Positions 3,176-37,103 of a stretch of DNA of 50,245 bases are shown one piece after another. The number at the start of each line of letters is the position of its first letter. The first letter of the stretch is position 1. A model generated the notes under the pieces. It did no database searches, was not told where the DNA came from, and was given only the letters and a program-made list of their open reading frames with translations. The DNA lies in the NCBI GenBank assembly GCA_947166895.1, contig CAMVFY010000003.1:1-50245 (forward strand), in the 5' to 3' direction. A program made the translations under genes and the position numbers. Origin of the DNA: an uncultured Candidatus Saccharibacteria bacterium (GTDB lineage Bacteria > Patescibacteriota > Saccharimonadia > Saccharimonadales > Saccharimonadaceae).

Positions 3176-3250
3176 TGGGGATTCGCCAAGTGGTAAGGCA
3201 CCGGGTTCTGGTCCCGGCATTCGGGGGTTCGAATCCCTCATCCCCAGCCA
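3176..3250 (+). tRNA. tRNA-Gln (anticodon CTG), CCA encoded
   Basis: TGGGGAT...CCGGG-TTCTGGT-CCCGG...GGGGG-TTCGAAT-CCCTC-ATCCCCA-G-CCA folds as a full cloverleaf. Confidence 0.96.
3233..3250 (+). repeat. Direct repeat copy 1 (tRNA-Gln 3' end)
   Basis: atccctcatccccagcca, 18 bp, identical to 3440..3457. Confidence 0.95.
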
Positions 3251-3262
3251 TGAGAATCTCTG

Positions 3263-3389
3263 ATGAAAACGAGACGAAAAAGCGAAGCTTTTTCTAAGGA
3301 TGCGAAAGAAATATAAAATTGAGAGCTCGCTCTCATATTTTTTATTTCTTGAGTAGCCGTGAGAAACGTAGTTTCTCGTCTCGTTTCAT
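3263..3389. other. Nested multi-hairpin (palindrome-rich) element
   Basis: Outer stem 3263-3275/3378-3389 (one bulged A) encloses GAAAAAGC-gaa-GCTTTTTC (3276-3294), AAGAAATA...GAGAGC-tc-GCTCTC...TATTTCTT (3306-3350) and GAGAAAC-gta-GTTTCTC (3361-3377). Confidence 0.75.
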
Positions 3390-3439
3390 AACGATTATCT
3401 GGCTCGCAGGGGATATAGGGATCCTCATTCCTCACCCCT

Positions 3440-3457
3440 ATCCCTCATCCCCAGCCA
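3440..3457 (+). repeat. Direct repeat copy 2 (duplicated tRNA-Gln 3' end)
   Basis: Exact 18-bp copy of the tRNA-Gln T-stem/acceptor/CCA end without the rest of a tRNA. Confidence 0.95.
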
Positions 3458-8286: not shown

Positions 8287-9015
8287 ATGCAAGAAAAAGT
8301 ATTTGACCGAGTCGAGAAAAAATATCTTGTCACAGCGCGCGACAAGGCGGAACTCGTCAAGATTATTGGCGATAATCTAAAAAAAGATACATATCACAAA
8401 TCCGAAGTTTTTAACATCTACTTTGATAACGATAACTTTGATTTAATCACCCAGTCGATTGATTGGACTGATTTCAAAGAAAAAATTCGCGCCCGCTCCT
8501 ACGGTGGCTATGACCGAGTTTTTGTTGAAATTAAAACCAAAATACGCGGTAAAGACAATAATATCGGCTACAAGCGCCGTGTTATGATTACAAAAAATGA
8601 TTTTGAGGAATTTGTTAGTGGTAGGCAAAATTTACAGGCACTATCGCAAAAATCAATCGAAACAGTTGACGATCTCCAAATTGCCAAAGAAGCCGACTAT
8701 TTAATCAAAAAATTAGATCTTAAACCTAAGATTTTAGTTGTTTATGATCGTGAGAGCTATAAAGATTCTGATGGGCTCCGCATTACCTTTGACGAAAACT
8801 TACGTTATCGCGACCAAAATTTAAGTTTCATTAAAGCAAACGATGATAAAATATATTTCGAAGATGACCATAATATTATTATGGAAATCAAAGCAAGTGG
8901 GGCTTTACCACTCTGGTTAGTCAAGAAGATGTCAGAGTTTAAGCTTTATCCGCAGCAGTTTAGTAAAATTGGTAACATTTATAAAAAACTAAGAAAGGAC
9001 CACAATGTTCAATAG
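8287..9015 (+). CDS. VTC domain (polyphosphate polymerase-type TTM fold) protein
   Basis: 242 aa; EKKYLV, NIYFDND, KIRARSYG, FVEIKTK...YKRR, MEIKASGALPLWL. Confidence 0.85.
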   Translation: MQEKVFDRVEKKYLVTARDKAELVKIIGDNLKKDTYHKSEVFNIYFDNDNFDLITQSIDWTDFKEKIRARSYGGYDRVFVEIKTKIRGKDNNIGYKRRVMITKNDFEEFVSGRQNLQALSQKSIETVDDLQIAKEADYLIKKLDLKPKILVVYDRESYKDSDGLRITFDENLRYRDQNLSFIKANDDKIYFEDDHNIIMEIKASGALPLWLVKKMSEFKLYPQQFSKIGNIYKKLRKDHNVQ

Positions 9016-36230: not shown

Positions 36231-36307
36231 GGATCTTTAGCTCAGTTGGCTAGAGCGTACGATTCACATTCGTAAGGTCACTGGTTCGAGCCCAGTAAGA
36301 TCCACCA
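36231..36307 (+). tRNA. tRNA-Val (anticodon CAC), CCA encoded
   Basis: GGATCTT...TACGA-TTCACAT-TCGTA...AAGATCC-A-CCA. Confidence 0.95.
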
Positions 36308-36342
36308 GTTTTTATCTTAATCGGCAAAATGGCCGATTTTTT
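36302..36342 (+). repeat. 41-bp direct repeat copy 1 (tRNA-Val CCACCA end plus terminator)
   Basis: ccaccagtttttatcttaatcggcaaaatggccgatttttt, identical to 37063..37103. Confidence 0.97.
36319..36342 (+). terminator. Intrinsic terminator after tRNA-Val
   Basis: AATCGGC-aaaatg-GCCGATT-TTTT. Confidence 0.8.
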
Positions 36343-36461
36343 AGTGGTAATTTTCTGTAAAGTACCTTTCAGTAATAGTATGCAATTTTGGGCTATTTTG
36401 CAGCAAAAAACTGCCAAAAATGCTATTTTCACTCCTGTTAAATCGTCTGTTAATACCCTAT

Positions 36462-36490
36462 AAAAAAAGCCGCCTGGAAATGGGCGGCTT
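36462..36490 (-). terminator. Intrinsic terminator downstream of the 144-aa ORF
   Basis: Minus strand AAGCCGCCC...GGCGGCTTTTTTT. Confidence 0.75.
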
Positions 36491-36503
36491 GAGTTACGCT
36501 GGA

Positions 36504-36938
36504 TTATGGGAGTTTATAGAGCCGGACTGTGGATACATGGTAGCCAGAATTAAACGCGATGCTGGTGAATTCATCCCTATAGAAGTCTTCTGCGGTTTCC
36601 GGCGAATCGATGATTTCAAACGCCACCACGGTGTCCAAAATCTCCGAATCGATTTGAGTTAATACTTCGGCAACACTCGGCTTAAAAAGCCCAGGGTAGC
36701 CGTACTCGTGAAGACACCGGAAATCATTATCCGGGATTGGAACGATTTCGCCATCCTGAACCTGCTTCTCAGTTTTGTCATTCCACAAATAGCTGATATT
36801 GAACAATTCTTCTTCGCCAAACGACCGAAGCCAATAGAGTTTTCCGTCTTTTTTAGCTACGGGCTTGATGCGCGAGTACCGTTCGATGATTTCCTCCCTC
36901 GAAATCCATGAAATGTGCATTTCAGACACATAAACCAC
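36504..36938 (-). CDS. Hypothetical protein (mini-island cargo)
   Basis: 144 aa ORF; AGGAGGTGG SD suggests a GTG start at MSEMHISW. Confidence 0.7.
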   Translation of the reverse strand: MVYVSEMHISWISREEIIERYSRIKPVAKKDGKLYWLRSFGEEELFNISYLWNDKTEKQVQDGEIVPIPDNDFRCLHEYGYPGLFKPSVAEVLTQIDSEILDTVVAFEIIDSPETAEDFYRDEFTSIAFNSGYHVSTVRLYKLP

Positions 36939-37062
36939 CTCCTATCTGTCATTTTTAAAGAATTTATGCCTGAACTACTTAATTGTAACACTTTTATTCA
37001 ATTCTAGCAAGAATAAGCTAGCTATCCTCTCTATATATTGTTAATACCTGGACAATTCGCCC

Positions 37063-37103
37063 CCACCAGTTTTTATCTTAATCGGCAAAATGGCCGATTT
37101 TTT
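37063..37103 (+). repeat. 41-bp direct repeat copy 2
   Basis: Exact copy of 36302..36342 without a tRNA body. Confidence 0.97.

Follow-up and report, generated by a model that had tools for sequence, protein, structure and literature searches.

The 761-bp island behind tRNA-Val in this genome belongs to a family of tiny mobile cassettes in Saccharibacteria that seems not to have been described before. Its members are aligned behind tRNA genes, and a large serine recombinase (LSR) encoded on separate elements is their probable mover. Within the window, by which we mean the whole 50,245-nucleotide stretch of contig CAMVFY010000003.1 that was analysed (assembly GCA_947166895.1), positions 36308-37068 are likely a non-autonomous, one-gene integrative cassette that is integrase-less and would be moved in trans by such an LSR. 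A literature search for such cassettes in Saccharibacteria found no description among open-access papers. The evidence comes from metagenome-assembled genomes. The searches covered 170 congeneric genomes, 393 genomes in the order, and 84,980 species genomes in a wide scan.

A one-gene unit behind tRNA-Val

The island is bounded by two identical copies of a 41-bp repeat (36302-36342 and 37063-37103), of which no copies are expected in shuffled sequence, and which occurs at only two places in the whole 659,739-bp assembly, also when up to three mismatches are allowed. The first-pass annotation placed these perfect repeats exactly, but interpreted them as the CCACCA tail of tRNA-Val plus its terminator, and as a target duplication. 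The first part of this interpretation stands, as tRNA-Val(cac) ends at 36307 and repeat bases 1-6 are therefore the CCACCA end of the tRNA. With the remaining 35 bp begins the left end (LE) of the cassette, which is conserved and has a terminator-like hairpin. The repeat is thus a composite of a 6-bp core and element sequence, and the 41 bp as such are not a plain target duplication, since only CCACCA is common to the tRNA and the other 35 bp belong to the element.

Table 1 Features of the tRNA-Val unit, in positions of the window
Feature	Positions	Strand	Basis and remarks
tRNA-Val(cac), docking gene	36231..36307	+	ARAGORN; prfA/tRNA-Val neighbourhood kept across the genus
Left core CCACCA, tRNA 3′ end, presumed crossover region	36302..36307	+	Common to the tRNA end and the RE in all CCACCA-type units
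LE subtype B (LE-B), decayed LSR 3′ coding sequence plus terminator-like hairpin	36308..36470	+	75-83% matches at cassette positions elsewhere, in many genomes; aligns without gaps to the LE portion of an LSR gene
Cargo gene, 144 aa	36504..36938	-	ORF call; relatives occur at further tRNA loci and on one phage-like contig
Right end (RE), encodes WWGRIVQVLTIYREDS, the LSR C-terminus	37026..37062	-	RE pattern match at 37033-37065; coding-like in 79 units
Right core CCACCA	37063..37068	+	Exact repeat copy; other units arranged alike
Second LE, first 35 bp, then broken off	37069..37103	+	Identical to 36308-36342; reads KIGHFAD(stop)DKN/WW as well

Two features by which members of the family are recognised are present in the window (Table 1). 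The first is an LE homologous to the LE of other units, which begins directly after the tRNA CCA, at its first following base. The second is an RE with a coding-like W[WL]GxIxQ[AV]LTxY motif beside the second core. The 35 bp past this core are probably the truncated LE remnant of an older unit. Between the repeat copies lies one credible ORF and no recombinase, both as first annotated.

A second repeat in the window, at tRNA-Gln (3176-3456), had been assigned to the same family, and does not belong there, as it is without LE and without RE. It is one of a set of tRNA 3′-end repeats, found at nine further loci that also lack LE and RE (L008, L009, L012, L016, L017, L022, L027, L379, and L386), in which the last 12-18 nt of the tRNA occur again 55-207 bp downstream with a hairpin between. 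In this genome, such repeats lie downstream of ~10 of ~40 tRNA genes. In relatives, similar short units are found before LE (L106, L110, L112, L118, and L119). These short repeats are a second phenomenon, separate from the LE/RE cassettes.

Distribution and probable movement of the cassettes

Throughout the sampled genus prfA and tRNA-Val(cac) are adjacent, and the sequence past the tRNA CCA differs in nearly every species. An LE of ~155 bp recurs from the first base past the CCA at this tRNA, with the A subtype (LE-A) present in 65 of the 170 genomes, and is also found behind tRNA-Val(tac), Leu(caa), Ala(cgc), and Ala(ggc), where a second copy usually follows 0.7-2.4 kb downstream. Most second copies are preceded by the RE, a conserved sequence ending in CCACCA. 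Together, LE and RE enclose cassettes that mostly carry a single gene and often follow one another in tandem; they are found behind tRNA-Val, Leu, Ala, Met, Phe, Ile, and Gln genes. One genome (G030) has four of them in a row at the tRNA-Val that is occupied in the window. We cut out 79 units of between 633 bp and 7.6 kb, anchored at Val, Met, Ile, Leu, Ala, Gln, and Phe tRNAs, and the longest ORF is oriented from the RE toward the tRNA in 60 of 78 units. Two arrays (L220, about position 1421, and L224, about position 8495) start at CCACCA with no recognisable tRNA, and Rfam found no RNA at these two starts.

The RE pattern occurs in 87 of the 170 congeneric genomes, while the reversed pattern gave almost no matches and none in listed genomes. 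Across the order it occurs in 57 of 393 genomes, which belong to two genera apart from one single-copy, one-mismatch match that is probably due to chance; one genome of the second genus holds 18 RE copies. The exact RE pattern with core gave 111 matches in the 84,980 species genomes, and the 80 listed among these are all from Saccharibacteria (many of them ruminant-gut) or from the rumen MAG RUG10634. The same query found no match in 2.9 million viral contigs. For 22 RE sites picked regardless of tRNAs and with 3 kb available on both sides, a same-strand tRNA lies within 3 kb upstream at 19, compared with 2, 1, and 0 for the three other arrangements.

The same cassette can be found at different tRNAs. 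A NUDIX cassette of 704-705 bp is located at tRNA-Val in two genomes (alone in G074, fourth in line in G030) and at tRNA-Met in a third (G057), with 94-95% identity. Further cassettes are common, core to core, to tRNA-Leu and tRNA-Met arrays of two genera (89%), to tRNA-Leu and tRNA-Val (89%), to tRNA-Ala and tRNA-Val (88%), and to tRNA-Val and tRNA-Met (93%). These shared cassettes, along with the LE/RE units behind many tRNAs, bear out the earlier suggestion of a family of tiny, integrase-less, tRNA-targeting cassettes.

Among related species the tRNA-Val site is either empty or occupied. The flank past the core of 2.6-kb units in two genomes (G108 and G134) resembles the sequence of a third (G073) from 15 bases past its tRNA-Val CCA (80% over 673 bp), and the flank past the four cassettes of G030 resembles that of G147 from 64 bases past the CCA (91% over 188 bp). 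For the window's own flank, no such empty-site match was found in relatives. A contig of 6,984 bp (G099:C2) was considered as an excised circle and rejected because its joined ends do not recreate the RE.

The recurrence of LE and RE also bears on whether the terminator of tRNA-Val could simply have been duplicated on the spot, so that the gene between the two copies would have nothing to do with them. A terminator-like hairpin does lie in the 35 bp past the core, just behind the tRNA, but LE and RE stand behind many tRNAs, with different cargo and in many species, which contradicts a repeat that arose only here by tandem duplication. We consider this explanation extremely improbable.

Cassette ends and serine recombinase genes

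Read on the minus strand, the RE encodes W[WL]GxIxQ[AV]LTxYxED, and its variation across the 79 units is concentrated at the third codon positions of several residues, as in coding sequence. At one locus, in G057, the RE peptide forms the C-terminus of a 391-aa ORF that has two domains typical of LSRs, Recombinase and zinc ribbon. This LSR gene, a copy without the N-terminal catalytic domain, passes through LE, core, and RE, with the core at residue 362, and its LE matches LE-B without gaps (GATTTTATATAA...CTGTTAAGTACCTTGC). The LE of another LSR gene, in G070, resembles LE-A. Stop codons are present in the LSR frame of both LE-A and the window LE. Based on these alignments, we interpret the RE as the last ~30 residues of an LSR and the LE as the decayed codons before them. 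A further reading, in which every cassette circle would express a protein that ends in the RE peptide, was rejected because mostly 2-11 open codons lie upstream of it in non-autonomous units.

A search with the G057 ORF recovered full-length LSR relatives in about 14 of the 170 genomes. An integrase elsewhere in the window's genome, which the first-pass annotation had proposed to look for, was found on contig C23, where an intact LSR of 589 aa with Resolvase, Recombinase, and zinc-ribbon domains runs antisense into tRNA-Gln(ttg) and has antisense-tRNA sequence as its C-terminus. The G070 LSR is at the same prfA/tRNA-Val locus as the window unit, and others end in tRNA-Pro, Leu, Ser, or Gln. 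In integrated LSR genes (L304, L305, L306, L307, L310-L314, and L318), a tRNA-antisense C-terminus, for example WLDRQDSNLRMLGPKPSALPLGDGP, replaces the RE-encoded one, and this exchange on integration could possibly act as a regulatory switch.

The ~7-kb element with the C23 LSR (L304, 1-6981) is 99.7-99.9% identical to elements in two other species, and one of these two (99.7%) also lies at a tRNA-Gln, but among different neighbouring genes. Identity of 99.7% combined with different host flanks therefore indicates that LSR elements moved recently by horizontal transfer. A binning error behind the shared element is possible in principle, yet both copies carry their own host flanks.

Mobilisation in trans, as first suggested, gains a candidate LSR family with an intact member elsewhere in the genome, but this resident enzyme is of the tRNA-Gln subtype, with an LE different from the window's, and no cognate LSR for the window unit was found in this 93%-complete assembly. 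Given this mismatch of subtype, the window cassette was more probably moved by an LSR of the G057 kind that came in from outside.

We propose a mechanism in which the LSR gene of an autonomous element would hold its own attachment site (attP) inside its 3′ end. In the circular form, the core would lie between the RE (the last ~30 LSR codons) and the LE (the decayed codons before). The circle would recombine at its own site with a tRNA 3′ end, through CCACCA, or CCAGCCA for tRNA-Gln, to give the order tRNA-core-LE...RE-core. Cassettes that retain only the att ends and a gene would be moved in trans by the cognate LSR, and repeated insertion would build tandem arrays behind the tRNA, resembling an integron platform. 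The ends, core, arrays, cassettes at different tRNAs, empty and occupied sites, LSR homology, and intact LSR in the genome can be read directly from the sequences; we infer catalysis in trans and the circular intermediates. Against this proposal stand the subtype of the resident LSR, the two arrays that begin without a recognisable tRNA, and the scarcity of intact LSRs of the family, which need occur in only about half of the genomes with RE and were found at full length in about 14 of the 170.

The cassettes could also be viewed as what is left of LSR elements after the loss, in place, of their integrase and cargo. They would now spread only by natural transformation followed by homologous recombination, for which the shared ends and the tRNA flanks would provide the homology. 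The absence of an intact family LSR from most carriers and the stop codons inside the LEs fit this view, which we nevertheless judge unlikely, as single cassettes are found core to core at different tRNAs with unrelated flanks, and LE-A and LE-B are 75-90% alike over ~155 bp in many species, as expected for ends in use.

Movement by a tyrosine recombinase, either the housekeeping Xer or an integron- or phage-type integrase, is a less probable reading still, and a very unlikely one. The cassette ends are pieces of a serine recombinase gene and such genes occupy the same sites, although tRNA 3′ ends and short cores are typical targets of tyrosine integrases, TGTTAA motifs recur in the cassette ends, and nearly every genome checked encodes Xer. 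The cassettes do not require a dedicated tyrosine integrase, because in ten carriers that are at least 90% complete the housekeeping Xer type is the single tyrosine recombinase, and in two no such gene was detected. The TGTTAA motifs were also considered as integron attC or Xer/dif sites, and these readings were rejected, as many carriers have only the housekeeping Xer and the ends are LSR coding sequence. The second tyrosine recombinase of the genome (L102) was likewise rejected as the mover, being sporadic in the genus and not located beside cassettes.

Cargo, known systems and implications

The 144-aa cargo protein of the window unit has no confident match in Pfam, NCBIfam, PHROGs, or PADLOC, and its AlphaFold model (pLDDT 37) is unusable. 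Six other genomes of the genus encode homologs, at loci different from this one; two of these loci lie close to tRNA-Phe and tRNA-Met. A search of viral contigs recovered a relative with 88% identity on one phage-like IMG/VR contig, and a search of GTDB contigs gave no match. On the phage-like contig (L070, 6001-12000), the cargo relative adjoins genes of 268 aa, ~360 aa, 449 aa (PurA-like), and 397 aa, and the same gene group forms a 7.45-kb unit in a tRNA-Val array (L107, 3605-9315).

Across the family, 56 cargo proteins match 47 Pfam families, mostly with one match per family, and include methyltransferases, GNAT acetyltransferases, NUDIX proteins, hydrolases, dehydrogenases, and MMPL and LysE transporters. 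Few cargo proteins resemble any known defence protein. Defence cargo is found on a 7.6-kb unit with LSR ends behind a tRNA-Met array in G057 (L268, 6534-11281), which encodes a BsoBI-like endonuclease, a DNA methylase, and a SMODS/CD-NTase.

Several known systems share part of this organisation. SCC elements are moved by the Ccr large serine recombinases, and ccr-less composite or remnant units exist (PMC3637587). The cassettes resemble them in their probable LSR mover, tandem units at one site, recombinase-less units, and restoration of the 3′ end of the target gene. The LSRs of the related elements have Resolvase, Recombinase, and zinc-ribbon domains. Unlike SCC, which targets rlmH/orfX, the cassettes target many kinds of tRNA (tRNA-Val in the window), carry mostly one gene in less than 2 kb, and have ends that are pieces of a recombinase gene. 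They share with integrons the arrays of mostly one-gene cassettes, a preferred gene orientation, and a fixed platform, but would use a serine recombinase, have a tRNA gene as platform and LSR-derived ends, and their orientation bias is incomplete. Both tyrosine recombinases in the window's genome score far below the IntI model cut-offs.

The SSV-type integrases of archaeal viruses and plasmids target a tRNA gene, and the gene that encodes them contains the attachment site (PMC8371274). Related LSR elements are alike in carrying the attachment site inside the LSR gene, as in G057, and in targeting tRNAs, but the enzyme is a tyrosine recombinase in SSV and a serine recombinase here, and the last ~30 codons are exchanged here whereas the SSV gene is split. 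Like other tRNA-targeting genomic islands, the cassettes insert at the tRNA 3′ end and keep that end intact; they differ in their core of 6-9 bp, the several tRNA species used per family, the lack of an integrase in the unit, and the tandem one-gene units. Serine integrases are not usual at tRNAs; in a survey of Mycobacterium abscessus, tRNA-overlapping sites are described for tyrosine integrases (PMC8092301). The cassette family lacks a defining feature of SCC, of integrons, and of SSV, given its tRNA target, serine recombinase, and absence of IntI.

We see an even chance that these cassettes constitute a functional analogue of integrons built on serine integrases. In such a system, tRNA 3′ ends would be the platforms. 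Sub-kilobase cassettes whose att sites are the fossil 3′ end of an integrase gene would pass from one tRNA to another, and across species and genera, with the help of LSR elements that on integration swap their own C-terminus for antisense-tRNA codons, maybe as a built-in switch. Regulation of an integrase through exchange of its own C-terminus on integration becomes a testable question. Since the system occurs naturally, is based on serine integrases, and combines short cores with many targets among tRNAs, it is a possible genetic tool for Saccharibacteria. If the cassettes work as proposed, episymbionts with very small genomes would gain single genes modularly at safe docking sites, including those for NUDIX, GNAT, methyltransferase, and hydrolase proteins, as well as the BsoBI-type endonuclease, DNA methylase, and SMODS/CD-NTase of one larger unit.
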